The notes beneath the pieces are model-generated. The model was not told where the DNA came from. It was given only the letters and a program-made list of their open reading frames with translations, and searched no databases. Below, piece after piece: positions 51,113 through 61,515 of a stretch of 64,000 nucleotides of DNA. This DNA comes from Candidatus Woesearchaeota archaeon. Its GTDB lineage: Archaea; Nanobdellota; Nanobdellia; Woesearchaeales; ARS49. How positions within the stretch are numbered: position 1 is the first letter of the stretch; each line of letters starts with the position of its first letter. The stretch spans positions 1 to 64,000 of the forward strand of contig JAFCDQ010000001.1 of NCBI GenBank assembly GCA_017609645.1, given 5' to 3'. A program made the translations under genes and the position numbers.

Positions 51113-51228
51113 GGCGATCGCCGGGAATCGAACCCGAGCCGGGAGAGTTCTGCAGCTCTCTGCAGAGCCAGTCAAACTTTGTTTGACGCTGCCACAGTCT
51201 CCTACGCTACCATTACGCCACGACCGCC
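51113..51228 (-). tRNA. tRNA-His (anticodon GTG) with 44-nt intron
   Basis: G-1 is encoded and can pair with C73. Acceptor GCGGTCG/CGATCGC; anticodon stem GGAGA/TCTCC; loop CTGTGG^C with the intron 51148-51191 after G37; T-stem TCGGG/CCCGG, loop TTCGATT. C73 and G-1 are His identity elements. The intron folds into GTCAAAC/GTTTGAC and CTC/GAG hairpins. Confidence 0.9.
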
Positions 51229-55306: not shown

Positions 55307-55631
55307 AATAGGCATAGTGGCAACAGCCACAATACTTATAATAGTCTTTGCAGTAACATTAACCATAGAAAAAAACACATCATATAATGCATTTGTACCA
55401 ATAAAATACTCAGTAAATGTAAACTACAAAGGACTAAGCTTAAATGCATTCCCAAGCATTCAACAACCACAACAAGCATGCATGGCAGAGGGTTATTTGC
55501 AATGCAAAGAACTACATCCATTATGGGAATATCCAACAAGCAGAGCAAGCATAAACTATAAACAATGCATGTGGGCAGTACGAAACATGTGCAACTGGGC
55601 AAATGCCAAATATCCAAATTATAAAGTGTAA
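55263..55631 (+). CDS. Small single-pass surface protein, member 10
   Basis: 122 aa. Hydrophilic N-terminus (TGKSKESGHKENI), TM KIGIVATATILIIVFAVTLT, then an ectodomain with QACMAEGYLQCKEL, YKQCMWAVRNMCNWA: four Cys. The overlap with member 9 and the lack of a gap to the structured element downstream suggest one operon. Confidence 0.65.
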   Translation: MTGKSKESGHKENIKIGIVATATILIIVFAVTLTIEKNTSYNAFVPIKYSVNVNYKGLSLNAFPSIQQPQQACMAEGYLQCKELHPLWEYPTSRASINYKQCMWAVRNMCNWANAKYPNYKV

Positions 55632-55632
55632 A

Positions 55633-55688
55633 AGGCAGCGAAAATCCTTTAGGATTTTCTGGTCTCAAAAATAAAATTTTTGAGGAGG
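55633..55688 (+). ncRNA. Two-hairpin structured element, copy 1
   Basis: AGGCAGC, then P1 (GAAAATCC-TTTA-GGATTTTC, 55640-55659), TGGT, then P2 (CTCAAAAAT-AAA-ATTTTTGAG, 55664-55684) running into the SD GAGGAGGT of the gene at 55699. The same architecture with different stem sequences occurs at 61350-61418, which is covariation. Could be a cis-acting leader or a small mobile repeat. Confidence 0.75.
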
Positions 55689-55698
55689 TAATAAAAAA

Positions 55699-56004
55699 AT
55701 GGATTTAAAAAATGCAGGATTGATAATATTTGCATTAGTAGCTTTAGCAGCAGTAATGGGATTTATCTACACAATGGGAGGACCTGAAAAAACACCAACA
55801 GGACAATTATCAGGAGAACAAAAATCAGCAACAAGCTGGTACAAAGTAATGGATGACGGAGAAGAAGTATGCGCAGTAAGAGTAAGATGCCCATTAGGAC
55901 AACCAGCAAAATTCATAGGCTATAATGCTGCAACAGACATGTTCGGTTGCGTATGCTATAACGGCTTTGTAGCATGGAGAAGCAGAATATATATCTATGG
56001 TTAA
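55699..56004 (+). CDS. Small single-pass surface protein, member 11
   Basis: 101 aa. Short N-terminus (DLKNA), TM GLIIFALVALAAVMGFIYTM, juxtamembrane TPTGQLSG, then EEVCAVRVRCPLGQPAKF and FGCVCYNGF: a CPxG and CxC pair close to members 3-5. SD GGAGGTAAT upstream, partly inside the structured element. Confidence 0.75.
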   Translation: MDLKNAGLIIFALVALAAVMGFIYTMGGPEKTPTGQLSGEQKSATSWYKVMDDGEEVCAVRVRCPLGQPAKFIGYNAATDMFGCVCYNGFVAWRSRIYIYG

Positions 56005-56044
56005 ATAGATATTTTTATATTTTTTACCTTAATTCTCTAGATTA

Positions 56045-56707
56045 ATGAACATAAAAGAAGTAAAAATAGCAGAAAAAGCAATTCAAACTCTAGAGAAAGA
56101 AGGAGTCAAAGAATTAAGACCTTGTCAAGAGAAAGCAATAAAATCAGGATTATTTGAAGGGAAAAATTTATTGGTTTGTACACCAACTGCAAGCGGCAAA
56201 ACTTTGATTGCAGAATTCGCAGCATTAAAACATATTTTAGAAAATGGAGGGAAAGTTGTATACATAGTTCCATTAATTGCACTTGCGAATCAAAAATATA
56301 AAGATTTTAAAACAAAATATTCTGACTTGTTTAAGATTGCATTATCTATTGGAGATTATGACAATTCTGATCCTTACTTAATAAATTATGACTTGATAAT
56401 TTGCACATCGGAGAAACTAGATTCTTTAACAAGACATCATGTGCCATGGCTTCAGCAGATTAGCTGCGTGGTTGTTGATGAAATACATTTATTGAATGAT
56501 TTTTCACGAGGGCCAACACTTGAGATATTGATTACAACATTACAGGAGTTGCTTCCAAAAGTTCAAATAATCGGATTAAGTGCAACAATAGGAAATCCAG
56601 GAGAATTAGCTAATTGGCTAAAAGCAGAATTAGTTATAGACACTTGGAGACCTGTTCCATTAAAAAAAGGAGTTTATTTTAATGGAGAGATAGAGTTTGT
56701 AGAATAA
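56045..56707 (+). pseudogene. Truncated Hel308/Ski2-like helicase (first RecA domain only)
   Basis: 220 aa. Q-motif-like LRPCQEKAIKSGLF, Walker A TPTASGKTLIAEFA, DEIH box VVVDEIHLL, motif III GLSATIGNPGELANWL, then WRPVPLKKGVYFNGEIEFVE and stop. Hel308 proteins are ~700 aa with a second RecA domain, winged helix and ratchet; all are missing. A second copy of its last ~95 bases lies at 57816-57912. Probably a non-functional remnant, though the frame is intact. Confidence 0.8.
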
Positions 56708-56710
56708 ATA

Positions 56711-57673
56711 TTATTTTTTATTATGAAGCGAAACATAATCAAAAATCAGCAAGTTAATTTCTTTTTTGATATTTTTTAATTTTGTTGAACAATCTTCTAA
56801 ATTTGAAAAAATAGCGTCTTGATGAAAAGGAATGCTGCTAGTCATAAAAGAATAATTCATATTACTTAAATTTTGAATTCTCCAGCCTTGCTCAAGCAAA
56901 TCATAAAGCTTAGCATAAATGTTTTTATTAAATTCTGCTTTAGCTACGTCAAAATTATTTTCTTCATTGAGATACTCTTTAGTTGGAAATTTTAAATGAA
57001 TTCTAGGATGGAAAAGAGTTGCATTACCTTCAGGCAAAATAAAACTAAATTGAAACTCATCATTTACTCCAGCACTTTTTGTAGCAACATAAGCTTTGTC
57101 ATAAAGATCTAAAGCAATATCTGCAATAGTTTCATATTCATTCTTTGCAGCCAAAAGTCCTCTGCTTTGATCTCTCTCGATAGCTTTCATCACAAAAGCA
57201 GAGCCGCTTCCATCAGCAATTAAACCTTGTTTATGAAGAAGTGGTTTTTTAATTTGATCAATAATTAAATGACAAGCTTCTAATTCCTTATCTTTATTTT
57301 CACCAAAAACAATAAAATTCAAACCTTCATCAGATTTCAAAGGAGCAAACTTATCAATGGTTTCAATAATTTTTTGCCCAAGCTCCTTAGGGGGAAGTTT
57401 TTTTGAATAAATTGGAATTTGATTTGAATTAGCTAATTGTTCTGCAACAAAATTTATCTTTAACATACTTCCTGTTCCTAGAATGTAGCAGCCAGCAACA
57501 TGAAAAGTTTTTTGATATCCATTAATCACTTCTCCATTACCGCTTCCTAAACCATCACTCATGCCAACAGCAATTTTTGTATCATTTGCAGGGAGGTCTA
57601 AATTTTTGAATAATGGAAAGGTTCCTTTTTTATCAGGACCTTTATTCTTAATATACGCCATAATATTTGTCAT
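56711..57673 (-). CDS. Proteasome-like Ntn-hydrolase paralogue
   Basis: 320 aa from ATG 57673, which has a TATA (TTTTATAAAT, ~29 nt upstream) and would be leaderless. Met removal would expose Thr2 (MTNIMAYIK). D40 (GMSDGLGSGNGEV) and K55 (YQKTFHVAGC) lie in the order of proteasome beta D17 and K33, and the C-terminal half shows LIADGSGSAFVMKAIERDQ then IALDLYDKAYVATKSAGVND, like the GSGS..A...D..SG core of 20S subunits. It is longer than normal beta subunits (~210 aa), with ~20 extra residues before D40 and a longer tail. Function unknown. Confidence 0.55.
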   Translation of the reverse strand: MTNIMAYIKNKGPDKKGTFPLFKNLDLPANDTKIAVGMSDGLGSGNGEVINGYQKTFHVAGCYILGTGSMLKINFVAEQLANSNQIPIYSKKLPPKELGQKIIETIDKFAPLKSDEGLNFIVFGENKDKELEACHLIIDQIKKPLLHKQGLIADGSGSAFVMKAIERDQSRGLLAAKNEYETIADIALDLYDKAYVATKSAGVNDEFQFSFILPEGNATLFHPRIHLKFPTKEYLNEENNFDVAKAEFNKNIYAKLYDLLEQGWRIQNLSNMNYSFMTSSIPFHQDAIFSNLEDCSTKLKNIKKEINLLIFDYVSLHNKK

Positions 57674-57738
57674 TTTCAACTTGATAAGAAGCTGGCTATT
57701 TATAAAACTTTCTTTTTGTTACTATTGTTTAGGCATTA

Positions 57739-57803
57739 CTCTTTCTAAACAATAACCATAAGCCGAGTATTATTAATGGGATAGACAGCCACTGGCCCAT
57801 TGT
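57739..57803 (-). pseudogene. Remnant of lgt 3' end
   Basis: Encodes TMGQWLSIPLIILGLWLLF-RK on the minus strand, matching the last ~23 codons of the intact lgt at 58715 with about 80% base identity. Nothing of the rest of lgt is present. Confidence 0.85.
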
Positions 57804-57815
57804 TGCCTAGAATGC

Positions 57816-57912
57816 AGATAATTGGTTAAATGCAGAATTAGTTATTGACAATTGGAGACCTGTTCCATTGAAGAAAGGAGTATATTTTAATGGAGAGGCA
57901 GAGTTTGTTTAA
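57816..57912 (+). pseudogene. Remnant of the truncated helicase 3' end
   Basis: Encodes NWLNAELVIDNWRPVPLKK then GVYFNGEAEFV and stop, matching 56611-56707 at about 89% of bases. It ends at the same truncation point as the upstream copy, so the gene was already truncated before being duplicated. Confidence 0.85.
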
Positions 57913-58665
57913 TTATTTCTTTAAAATTAAATTCAATATTTCTTGTATTCCCTGATGGCCATGTTCTTGAGAAATATAACCTTTAAATTGTCTTACTTTT
58001 TCGATTACCTCTTCTTCTGCATTGCTAAAAGTAAATATTGTCCCACCTAATTTTGCAATTAATTCTAACATACCAATATCATTAAGATTATCACCAATCG
58101 CAAATAATTGATGTTCATTAGGATTAAATTTTTTTAATGTGTAATCAACTGCAATTTCTTTTCCACCATTTGAAGGAACAAAATAGATATAATCTTCAGT
58201 TTTTATTAATCTAAAATTTTGGTCTTGTGTTTTTGATATCTGTTCGTAAACTGAATGATCTTTAATTTTTAAGCGAAATGTTAAAACTCTTTCCTCATCA
58301 AGCAGTTCAACTCCATTTTGCTGTAATTTTTTTTTATATTTTTCAACTAAATTATTATCAAAATATTCTTGAAATCTTGACATATATACTTGATCCAAAG
58401 TCCCATCTCCTTTCATAATTACACACCCCTGTTCTAAAATTGCAAAATCGTGTGATAGGGCTCCCCTTACTAATTCATACGCAGAAGGTCTTCTGCCTGA
58501 TGAGAGAATAATGTGTCCGTCTTGTTTAATATTTTTTAGCAAATCTTGGGTTAATTTAGATAGATATCTTTTTTCCCCAGACAAAGGAATATTTTCAAAT
58601 CTGTTATCAGGGTCATCGTGGATTAATGTTAAGTCAATATCTGAAAATATTAGCTTTTTTCTCAT
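57913..58665 (-). CDS. HAD-superfamily phosphatase (Cof-type)
   Basis: 250 aa. Motif I FSDIDLTLIHDD, motif II LSSGRRPSAYEL, C2 cap in the middle (~85-180), and motif IV IGDNLNDIGMLELIAKLGG. The type IIB cap places it with sugar-phosphate, phosphoglycolate and mannosyl-glycerate phosphatases; substrate unknown. It begins next to the helicase remnant stop and lies upstream of lgt in the duplicated region. Confidence 0.85.
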   Translation of the reverse strand: MRKKLIFSDIDLTLIHDDPDNRFENIPLSGEKRYLSKLTQDLLKNIKQDGHIILSSGRRPSAYELVRGALSHDFAILEQGCVIMKGDGTLDQVYMSRFQEYFDNNLVEKYKKKLQQNGVELLDEERVLTFRLKIKDHSVYEQISKTQDQNFRLIKTEDYIYFVPSNGGKEIAVDYTLKKFNPNEHQLFAIGDNLNDIGMLELIAKLGGTIFTFSNAEEEVIEKVRQFKGYISQEHGHQGIQEILNLILKK

Positions 58666-58714
58666 GCAATATAAGTAAGCTAGCCAATATATAAATGTTT
58701 CTACTAAATAATAG

Positions 58715-59461
58715 TTACTTTTTTCTGAATAATAGCCATAAGCCTAGAATGATTAATGGAATAGACAGCCATTGGCCCATTGTCATTATACCATACATAG
58801 GAATATCTCTGAAGAATTCAATAATAATTCTGAATACTGCATAAAGAACTAAGAAAAGGCCAAGAGTTTTTCCTGGCTTAGGATTTTTCTTATAATAAAA
58901 TAAAACTGCAAAGAAAATAATTAAGTTGTATAATGCTTCATACAATTGAGTAGGATGTCTAAAACCTGCAGCCCCTGGAAATTGAACAGCCCATGGCAAA
59001 TTAGTAATCTTGCCATAAAGTTCTCCATTAATAAAATTTCCAATCCTGCCAAACACCTGAGCTAATGCACCTGGAATAACAACAAGATCACAGATATTTA
59101 GGAAAGAGAATTTATTTTTTTTGCACCAGAGCCAGCCCGCAACAATTAATCCTAACAAAGCACCATGAAAACTCAAGCCGCCTTTCCAAATCATAAAAAT
59201 CTCTAAAGGATTAGCAAAATAATAAGCAGGATTATACACAAAAACAGCAAATAATCTTGAACCGATAAGCATGCCAACAACTATTGTAATTAAAAAAGAA
59301 TCCAACTGCTTTTCAGACATCTTAAGAACTTTTTTCTTAATTTGAAATTTAAGAAAAAAATAAACAATAAAAAAACCCAAAACATACATCAAACCATACC
59401 AACGAATTTCAAAACCCAAAACAGAAAAAATGGCAGGATTAAGATTATGAACAAAAGTCAT
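58715..59461 (-). CDS. lgt: Prolipoprotein diacylglyceryl transferase
   Basis: 248 aa, seven TM helices. IRWYGLMYVLGFFIVYFFL, GGLSFHGALLGLIVAG (catalytic His), the signature GRIGNFINGELYGKITNLPW, HPTQLYEALYN and FRIIIEFFRD with the conserved Arg and Glu are all present. Lgt transfers diacylglycerol to the lipobox Cys of preprolipoproteins. Archaea use a different, AliAB-type route where known, so an intact Lgt is notable. Overlaps the ligase stop (ATGA). Confidence 0.93.
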   Translation of the reverse strand: MTFVHNLNPAIFSVLGFEIRWYGLMYVLGFFIVYFFLKFQIKKKVLKMSEKQLDSFLITIVVGMLIGSRLFAVFVYNPAYYFANPLEIFMIWKGGLSFHGALLGLIVAGWLWCKKNKFSFLNICDLVVIPGALAQVFGRIGNFINGELYGKITNLPWAVQFPGAAGFRHPTQLYEALYNLIIFFAVLFYYKKNPKPGKTLGLFLVLYAVFRIIIEFFRDIPMYGIMTMGQWLSIPLIILGLWLLFRKK

Positions 59462-61197
59462 TTACCTCTTCCTCTTTGATCATGATAAAATGTCTTTAAT
59501 TCATCAAGAGTTGTGCATTCTTTAGCACGCCTATCTTCTCTTAAACGAATAAACCTAGGAAAACGCAAAGCAAAACCAGAAGCATACTTAGGACTTTTCT
59601 GAATCTCTTCATAATTAACTTCAATAACAATCTTAGGCTCAACTCTCACAGAACGATCTTTTTCTTCGCGAATTAATGGGTTAAGCAAATCAGTCATCTC
59701 CTTAAAACTAACACCTTCATCTGCTTTTTCTTTAATACCTGTTCCTACCTTGCCAATTTCAACAAACTCTCCTGTATCTTTATCTAAAACAGCAACCACA
59801 AAACTAGCCAACCACTTACTTCTTTTACCAGAACCCCATTCAGCTCCGACAATAACAGCATCTACTGTCTCCATCACAGGCTTAACTTTAACACCATAAC
59901 CAACTCTGCTGCCAGGCTTGTAAATACCTTTAAGATTTTTAACCATAATACCTTCATTACCTGCCTGCAAACTTTCCTGATAAAATTTCTCAGCATCTTT
60001 CTCGCTGCTTGTCATTATCTGTTTAGCAAGAAGCTTAGGACATAATTTTTTGAGAAGCTTTCTACGATCTTCAAAAGGAACAGTAAGCAAACTCTTACCA
60101 TCAAGATAAAGAATATCAAACACATTAATCTTAACAGGATAATCTTTAACCATTTGCGCTATATTGTGCTTTCTTTTGATTCTTTGAGAAATCTTTTGAA
60201 AAGGCAAATATCTGCCTTTTTCATCTAAACCAATAATCTCAGAATCAATAATAAAATTACCTTTTAATTTTTTAACTTCCTCAACAATATCAGGAAACTG
60301 TTTAGTAACTTCTTCCAACCTTCTTGTGAATAATTTTATTTCTTTACCTTTTTTATTAATTAAAACACGAAAGCCGTCATATTTGTATTCAATAGCAGCA
60401 GGCTTGCCAACACGTTCAAAAGCATCTTTAATATCTGCAGCTTTTTGATACAACATAACTTTAACAGGCTTGCCTGGTGAAAGTTTTACTTTTTTAAGTC
60501 CAGCAATATGTTCAGTCTTAGCAATAATAGCAACCTGACCAAAATCTGTTAACACATCATAAGCATCCTGCACAGCATCACTATATTCATTATATTTCTT
60601 ACGATCAACATCAATCTTATTTGCTTTTTCATCAAACTTTAATTCAATCTGCTTTGGAAAGAAAGCCCAAACAATAGCATCTCTTAACGTACCTTCGCCT
60701 AATCCAACACGTAAGTCTTCGAGAACTGTTCTGACTATATACTTAGCTTCCACATCAGAAGCACTAGTCAACAATTCAGCCAAAAGCTTAACTTTACGAT
60801 TAACAGTGCCAGCACCTTCAATAACAGCAAGCTTTTGCAAATTCTCAAACACTTTCTGAACACTTAAAGACCTTGAAAACAAAGTTCTTTGAGATTTATT
60901 GCTAATAACCTTTTCAGCAACTTCTCCTAAATCACCAATCTTCCTCCATTCTTTCATAATATCCTTATTTTCCTTACCAGAAGCTGTTGCTAATGCTTTA
61001 ATCACTAACTTAGCAGCAACACCAAGCTTACGCTCATCATAACCCGGGAAAACCCTTCCCTGCACAAGCAAATAAACACGCTCAATCTCAGATTCAGGCA
61101 CTTTTTTCAAAAAATCAGAAAGAATCTTAGTCTTAAGCAGCCTTTTACTAGTAGAATCTAACTGCTGATAAACACCAGTTAAAAGCTTATATTTCAT
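59458..61197 (-). CDS. lig: ATP-dependent DNA ligase
   Basis: 579 aa from ATG 61197. N-terminal DNA-binding domain (~1-220), adenylation motif I EYKYDGFRVLIN with the Lys nucleophile, motif III FIIDSEIIGLD, motif IV EGIMVKNLKGIYKPG and motif V VKPVMETVDAVIVGAEWG; the C-terminal OB domain ends in RFIRLREDRRAKECTT. Standard archaeal replicative ligase length. Co-transcribed with lgt. Confidence 0.95.
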   Translation of the reverse strand: MKYKLLTGVYQQLDSTSKRLLKTKILSDFLKKVPESEIERVYLLVQGRVFPGYDERKLGVAAKLVIKALATASGKENKDIMKEWRKIGDLGEVAEKVISNKSQRTLFSRSLSVQKVFENLQKLAVIEGAGTVNRKVKLLAELLTSASDVEAKYIVRTVLEDLRVGLGEGTLRDAIVWAFFPKQIELKFDEKANKIDVDRKKYNEYSDAVQDAYDVLTDFGQVAIIAKTEHIAGLKKVKLSPGKPVKVMLYQKAADIKDAFERVGKPAAIEYKYDGFRVLINKKGKEIKLFTRRLEEVTKQFPDIVEEVKKLKGNFIIDSEIIGLDEKGRYLPFQKISQRIKRKHNIAQMVKDYPVKINVFDILYLDGKSLLTVPFEDRRKLLKKLCPKLLAKQIMTSSEKDAEKFYQESLQAGNEGIMVKNLKGIYKPGSRVGYGVKVKPVMETVDAVIVGAEWGSGKRSKWLASFVVAVLDKDTGEFVEIGKVGTGIKEKADEGVSFKEMTDLLNPLIREEKDRSVRVEPKIVIEVNYEEIQKSPKYASGFALRFPRFIRLREDRRAKECTTLDELKTFYHDQRGRGK

Positions 61198-61349
61198 ATA
61201 CAATAGAAAGTATAGCTTATTTTAATAATTTTGCTTTAAAAGAGTTATGTATTAACATTCTAGACGACAACTATGGAAAAACAATTCCTAAACTATATTT
61301 AAAACAACATCTAAGTAAATAGTATAACAACAAAAAAACATCAAAAAAG

Positions 61350-61418
61350 AGGCAGCGAGAAAATGAAAGCGAATAAAATTGTTCATTTTCTCTGGTCTCA
61401 ATTTTAAAAAAATTGAGG
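61350..61418 (+). ncRNA. Two-hairpin structured element, copy 2
   Basis: AGGCAGC, then P1 (GAGAAAATGAA pairing with TTCATTTTCTC, 61357-61392, 14-nt loop), TGGT, then P2 (CTCAATTTT-AAA-AAAATTGAG, 61397-61417) and G. P1 is 11 bp and P2 9 bp, both perfect. Framing sequence is identical to copy 1 at 55633 but the stem bases differ and stay paired. It ends at the SD of a 29-codon ORF. Confidence 0.75.
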
Positions 61419-61425
61419 TGAAACC

Positions 61426-61515
61426 ATGAAAATAAAAGCACAAAAATATAAAAGACATCTGGTGCCAACAGCACTAATAGCTGAAATGATTGAGAAGTTC
61501 TCATTCAGCATTTAG
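61426..61515 (+). CDS. Possible 29-aa peptide after the structured element
   Basis: ATG 61426 follows GAGGTG by five bases. The peptide reads KIKAQKYKRHLVPTALIAE then MIEKFSFSI. No match recognised. Eleven bases after its stop a second short frame (61527-61613, MTEEELLKLYEMAQETLQ...) overlaps the start of the coiled-coil gene. These may be leader peptides, a decayed gene, or chance. Confidence 0.35.
   Translation: MKIKAQKYKRHLVPTALIAEMIEKFSFSI

Follow-up and report, generated by a model that had tools for sequence, protein, structure and literature searches.

Small palindromic elements of Woesearchaeota with arms that match their landing sites

The first 64,000 nucleotides of contig JAFCDQ010000001.1 of a Candidatus Woesearchaeota archaeon (positions 1–64,000, here called the window; genome G000) contain two copies of a double hairpin, P1 followed by P2, each running into the Shine-Dalgarno sequence (SD) of the next open reading frame (ORF). 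An earlier note on this DNA left open whether such an arrangement is a translational switch or leader, or a small mobile hairpin repeat. We conclude that it is most probably a mobile DNA element of Woesearchaeota, small and non-coding, which copies its landing site into its own arms. The element is a new family of small palindromic mobile elements and not primarily a riboswitch.

Anatomy of the element

The joint pattern GGCAGCGA-N-TCTGGTCTCA matches twice in the window and not once in 100 dinucleotide shuffles, bearing out the two AGGCAGC-P1-UGGU-P2-GAGG double hairpins of the earlier note. Copy 1, on the plus strand, opens with its left flank T (GTAAAAGG, 55628–55635), the landing site with its AGG end. 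The core, CAGCG-P1-CTGG (55636–55662), follows; it scores 44.4 bits against the covariance model R1 introduced below, and its P1 is an 8-bp stem with a TTTA loop (55640–55659). In P2 (55663–55685), T' (TCTCAAAAAT) and the right T (ATTTTTGAGG) pair over 10 bp around an AAA loop, while T' and the left T pair over 3 nt only. The 3' end of P2 is part of the SD of the ORF starting at 55699 (GGAGGT, then ATG). Copy 2, also on the plus strand, comprises T (AAAAAAGAGG, 61343–61352), a core with a P1 of at least 10 bp and a long loop (61353–61395; 44.6 bits), and a 10-bp P2 (61396–61418; TCTCAATTTT, AAA loop, AAAATTGAGG), whose 3' end is the SD GAGGTG ahead of the ATG at 61426. Both the adjoining SDs and the 8-bp P1 of copy 1 are thus as first described; P2, given as 9 bp, has 10 bp in both copies once the U·G base pair is counted.

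A third core in the window (CAGCGTCAAACAAAGTTTGACTGG, 51168–51191, minus strand), lying inside the intron of a tRNA-His gene, had been overlooked, as had three cores elsewhere in the genome. P1 is perfect in all six, and the window contains three matches to the generic core CAGCGNNAA-N-TTNNCTGG where 0.04 would be expected. Neither window hairpin matched any of 4227 Rfam models at the gathering threshold, the window giving tRNA matches only, which agrees with the claim that the layout belongs to no described family; at the element loci in general, Rfam matches were limited to tRNA and RNase P. No description of the element was found in the open-access literature, subscription papers and preprints being outside the search.

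About 100 copies yield a consensus in which T is followed by CAGCG-NNAA..TTNN-CTGG, then by T', a loop and T again. The element is typically 42–60 bp long (around 50 bp) and has no coding content. T denotes the landing site, of which a second copy stands on the right; T', an inverted copy some 7–15 nt long, can pair either with the left T (stem P0, separated from P1 by an internal loop AGC/UG) or with the right T (P2). Among 101 copies, T ends in AGG in 82 and in GGG in 13. G5, A8 and A9 of P1 and their partners are near-constant, and GGCAGC/UGGUCU is near-invariant; the view that bases differ while pairing is kept therefore holds for most of P1 and P2 and fails at these P1 positions.

The match between arms and landing site was quantified in copies collected without reference to P0. 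Model R1 was built from 25 copies found by the pattern GGCAGC-hairpin-TGGTCT; the looser GGCAGC-N-TGGTCT gives mostly noise over the relatives, and only hairpin-forming matches were retained. In the 25-copy set, 91.5% of the P0+P1 cells pair, compared with 71.4% after shuffling, with a covariation score of 0.519 versus 0.168, and sliding the register abolishes the pairing. In a copy set also collected without P0, 181 of 275 possible pairs form between positions 4–8 of T' and the left flank of the same copy, compared with 97.9±9.3 (maximum 130) when the flanks come from other copies; the own-flank pairing, too, drops when the register is slid. The 101-copy set was gathered by a model that includes P0, which biases its P0 figures upward. 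Outside the constant GG, at positions 4–8, the left and right T are 62–87% identical, compared with 32–47% for unrelated copies, and the excess reaches approximately position 13. The direct repeat of T extends from about 7 nt to about 60 nt, with 13–14 nt at several tRNA T-arm sites, 25–30 nt or so in L150 and L188, and the maximum of around 60 nt in L109. Having no fixed length, it is unlike a transposase target duplication.

The core probably moves to new sites as DNA, and the direct and inverted copies of T would arise during insertion or later. The simplest route would be a polymerase switching templates at the hairpin, with T first copied by snap-back into T' and then copied again on the right. 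We infer this origin because the direct repeat is variable in length and identical cores carry different T'. Polymerase template switching is known to create and perfect stems (PMC8794818). Thanks to the second T copy, an SD, tRNA end or gene end would survive the insertion intact, and insertions would therefore be tolerated. The earlier note took pairing without conserved sequence as the mark of selected structure, an argument that is unsafe here because T' follows the landing site and because template switching also produces compensatory changes without any RNA function. Covariation in this element need not mean selection, as the arms may stay perfect through template switching during replication, and even strong stem covariation is, on its own, no proof of RNA function here.

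Two sets of copies show further regularities. In genome G081, part of the loop (TCG...ACTC) is constant in the lineage while T' and T vary (L116, L121, L124, L125, L132, L138 and L145). L188 (G000:C2:257520) and L150 (G136:C4:266601), from two families of the order, share one position, antisense and close to the 3' end of a gene whose sequence suggests ribosomal protein S10, each with a 25–30 nt direct copy of the gene end.

Distribution, movement and landing sites

The GGCAGC-hairpin-TGGTCT layout recurs in relatives of G000, whose genomes are largely fragmented metagenome-assembled genomes (MAGs). The earlier note had held that its element would fall if a covariance search of this genome and its relatives found no further copies; with R1 at E≤1e-5, 78 of 353 genomes of the order are positive, with up to 11 copies per genome. 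Occurrence is patchy, copies being present in G017 and absent from its congener G002. A phylum-wide draw searched with a broader model, R2, gave 43 positive genomes among 371, 42 of them in the same order. Among 84,980 species genomes scanned, there were 87 matches, 68 on archaeal contigs and 19 bacterial. The archaeal matches, mostly in Woesearchaeota or Nanoarchaeota MAGs, form P1 in 62 of 68 cases and both hairpins in 52, compared with 1 and 0 of the 19 bacterial matches. None of the four matches on viral contigs (IMG/VR) forms P1 or both hairpins, and a viral vehicle was rejected on this ground.

Comparison of related sites and of copies within a genome points to movement. G007 carries an insertion in RNase P RNA at a site that is empty in its congener G020; in another genus, G296, G297 and G298 have the insertion, whereas G299 shows the empty site. 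G007 combines one 19-nt P1 (GCAAAATC..GATTTTGC) with two different T': TCTCCTTTTG at an SD and TCTTACAAAG in tRNA-Val. The long P1 of the window core at 61353 is nearly identical to that at C1:303319–303362 of the same genome, and their P2 stems differ; G121 carries identical elements in two unrelated contexts, and tandem copies are common (L036, L050, L114, L129). Since the same core occurs with different T' and empty sites exist, we infer that the core is mobile and that T' is made anew. Copies dispersed over non-orthologous sites, empty sites in relatives and direct repeats of the target, the hallmarks of mobile palindromic repeats, are all present. Together with the many further copies, they favor the mobile hairpin repeat among the options first listed.

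Landing sites were assigned by simple rules for 103 copies. In 42, a start codon lies 3–13 nt past the right T; 27 are in tRNA genes, of which 14 are in the anticodon loop (37/38), 7 antisense to the T-arm and 6 at the 5' end; and two are in RNase P RNA. Copies within proteins mostly lie at Lys-Lys-Gly of type IV pilin-like leaders (read from the sequence by eye), and others are found at start codons and at promoters with a transcription factor B recognition element (BRE) and TATA box, also read by eye. The usual AGG end of T accounts for SDs, tRNA segments, RNase P and Lys-Lys-Gly codons alike as landing sites. A variant core, CCAGC..TGGGC, with T ending in AAAAC (L166, L171, L178, L184, L191), mostly sits immediately 5' of an archaeal BRE/TATA box (AAAACC-TTTATAAA).

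These landing sites bear directly on the reading of the element as a cis-acting translational leader or switch, in which P2 would mask the SD and P0 release it, with P1 or the conserved internal loop as the binding site of a ligand or protein. P2 spans the GAGG of an SD in approximately 40% of copies, P0 and P2 contest the same strand, and the near-invariant GGCAGC/UGGUCU and the A-A of P1, like the 42 copies followed by a start codon, would fit such a device, as would recurrence at the SDs of GAPDH and ribosomal protein L12 across genomes. There is, however, no SD to hide in the tRNA genes, in RNase P RNA, in the several copies inside coding sequences or in those at promoters. The downstream genes are diverse, a comparison of the positions of the 103 copies and of downstream genes revealed no consistent placement upstream of related genes, the positive species are patchy, and copy 1 of the window, with its 3-pair P0, makes no balanced switch. 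We thus regard a leader as very unlikely and do not retain it as the primary nature of the element, given the copies found in tRNA genes, within RNase P RNA and, in frame, inside proteins. For a mobile element landing at SDs, P2 would cover GAGG, and an effect on translation is possible but would be secondary.

Y1 transposase and reverse transcriptase were considered as movers. A match to Y1 transposase is absent from 43 of the 78 carriers, including those with the highest copy numbers, and reverse transcriptase (PF00078) gave no match in the carriers G000, G024, G081, G121, G142 and G036; a resident enzyme of either kind was therefore rejected as a required mover. A single T' matching both boundaries recalls the logic of IS608 guides. 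The element could be a non-autonomous relative of IS200/IS605, T' acting as a guide that pairs with the sites cleaved by a single-strand transposase on the left (P0) and on the right (P2), and Y1 is indeed slightly more common in carriers (35/78) than in non-carriers (85/275; Fisher p 0.03). We nevertheless consider this very unlikely: G000, G007, G020, G024, G017, G080 and G081 have 4–11 copies and no Y1 match, T' varies by site instead of being fixed within a lineage, and Y1 elements are not known to duplicate their target.

Several observations weigh against a mobile element that writes its target into its arms. All evidence for movement is between species or between copies, none having been seen within one strain, and MAG assemblies may be collapsed or chimeric. 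No mobilizing enzyme emerged from the searches for Y1 transposase and reverse transcriptase, both of which are missing from several high-copy genomes. Since the left and right T of many copies have only 3–5 nt in common, a duplication cannot be recognized everywhere. Simple snap-back copying would not produce the U that opens T' opposite a G in 93 of 101 copies, and the constant A-A in P1 is left unexplained by the mechanism. The recurrences at the SD of GAPDH (L037, L163, L177) and of L12 (L123, L125, L165), each in three genomes and with names read from N-terminal sequences instead of a profile search, could hint at a regulatory role; they could reflect either a hot spot or regulation.

Copies in reading frames and in tRNA genes

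Eight copies in coding sequences (L034, two in L036, L038, L039, L051, L121 and L175) add 45–54 nt each, always a multiple of three and free of stops. They are therefore translated and not spliced, and excision from mRNA as an intron was rejected for them; in proteins, a mobile copy would simply remain in frame.

The copies in tRNA anticodon loops behave differently from the rest. In the 37/38 register, most show 3 of 3 pairs in the outer helix, 2–3 of 3 in the inner helix and only 2–4 of 4 in an imperfect central helix of a bulge-helix-bulge (BHB)-like fold, where a canonical BHB has 3-nt bulges on either side of a 4-bp helix. Of the 14 anticodon-loop copies, 8 have all six nucleotides of GGCAGC matched by a complement in the P2 loop, compared with 0 of 76 others, a result on which a canonical BHB intron in every copy was rejected. 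The tRNA-His gene of the window (51113–51227, minus strand) has a 44-nt intron with a canonical BHB (4/4, 3/3 and 3/3 pairs) and the full element core inside it. One tRNA-Gln copy is common to several species (genus g87 and G211; anticodons read by hand), with compensatory changes in P2. In G007, the sole detected tRNA-Val(UAC) gene carries the element; an empty counterpart was sought in G020 and G025, where no match to tRNA-Val was obtained, making the comparison uninformative. For the mobile element, the GGCAGC strand appears to have gained a partner in the P2 loop once inside an anticodon loop, giving a BHB-like fold, and such copies can probably be spliced as introns. The simplest reading suggests that anticodon-loop copies persist only once spliceable. 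Separately, in G136 (93% complete), the Rfam model recognized only 11 tRNA genes; its tRNAs have several introns, apparently also in the D-arm.

The same copies could be taken to mean that the element is a mobile RNA intron that is invariably removed at the RNA level, either through self-excision or by the tRNA splicing endonuclease, and spreads by reverse splicing. Insertion at 37/38, the BHB-like folds, the element in the only tRNA-Val(UAC) of G007, the RNase P insertions and the exact restoration of T on removal are all in line with this. Excision would not, however, require the open frame kept in the coding copies, the BHB partner is missing from all 76 non-tRNA copies, insertions antisense to tRNA genes or upstream of TATA boxes fall outside the target transcripts, and several carriers have no reverse transcriptase. 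An obligate RNA intron thus appears improbable, and mobility at the DNA level is preferred.

A more far-reaching version of the DNA-level reading, which we put forward tentatively as a possibility somewhat short of even, is that a hairpin of about 25 nt is the sole fixed part, writes direct and inverted copies of its target on insertion without a dedicated transposase, becomes a BHB intron in tRNA genes and so forms a living source of archaeal tRNA introns. A dispersed repeat and tRNA introns are linked here in the same genomes and in the same window, so that a late gain of archaeal tRNA introns can be put to a direct test; the element in tRNA genes appears to have been turned into a removable intron. 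Gain of tRNA introns by integration of mobile elements has been proposed for Caldiarchaeum (PMC3293823). Like archaeal BHB tRNA introns (PMC4090602), the tRNA copies lie at 37/38 and have a BHB-like fold, whereas most copies lie outside tRNAs and have no BHB partner, one element combining the roles of intron and dispersed repeat.

Relation to known elements and neighboring features

Integron attC sites also conserve structure with free sequence, a variable terminal stem and an unpaired spacer; unlike them, the Woesearchaeota element has no conserved R boxes, and its flanks track the landing site. Rickettsia palindromic elements (RPE), which are about 150 bp long, fall into named sequence families and are found in frame inside protein genes (PMC10969869), resemble it as small palindromes with many insertions, some in frame in genes, and without a transposase of their own. 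The present element differs in its length of around 50 bp, in arms rewritten at each landing site, in its presence in tRNA loops and RNase P, and in its unrelated hosts. Mitochondrial double-hairpin elements and yeast GC clusters (PMC4478555) are likewise short mobile hairpins with short border repeats that merge into larger units, but GC clusters vary little and have AG or ACT repeats, whereas copies of the present element have just the core in common, their T' being the target in inverted form. It is therefore neither an RPE nor a mitochondrial double-hairpin element, differing in sequence, host and target-copied arms. REP/REPIN sequences and prokaryotic miniature inverted-repeat transposable elements (PMC3733652, PMC10969869) are also dispersed non-coding palindromes; in contrast to these, no GTAG/CGTC border tag and no larger parent element were found for the present element, and carriers do not need Y1. 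If our reading is correct, DPANN archaea gain a palindromic mobile family comparable to RPE and mitochondrial double-hairpin elements, and arms that follow the target make the copying step readable from sequence.

The ORF downstream of copy 1 (55699–56004, plus strand) encodes 101 amino acids with a single hydrophobic segment, at the N-terminus. Two short stretches of the window are duplicated (56620–56707 with 57820–57911, and 57732–57811 with 58715–58790): a degraded block repeats the end of a truncated helicase-like ORF and the end of the gene at 58715–59461, which looks like lgt.

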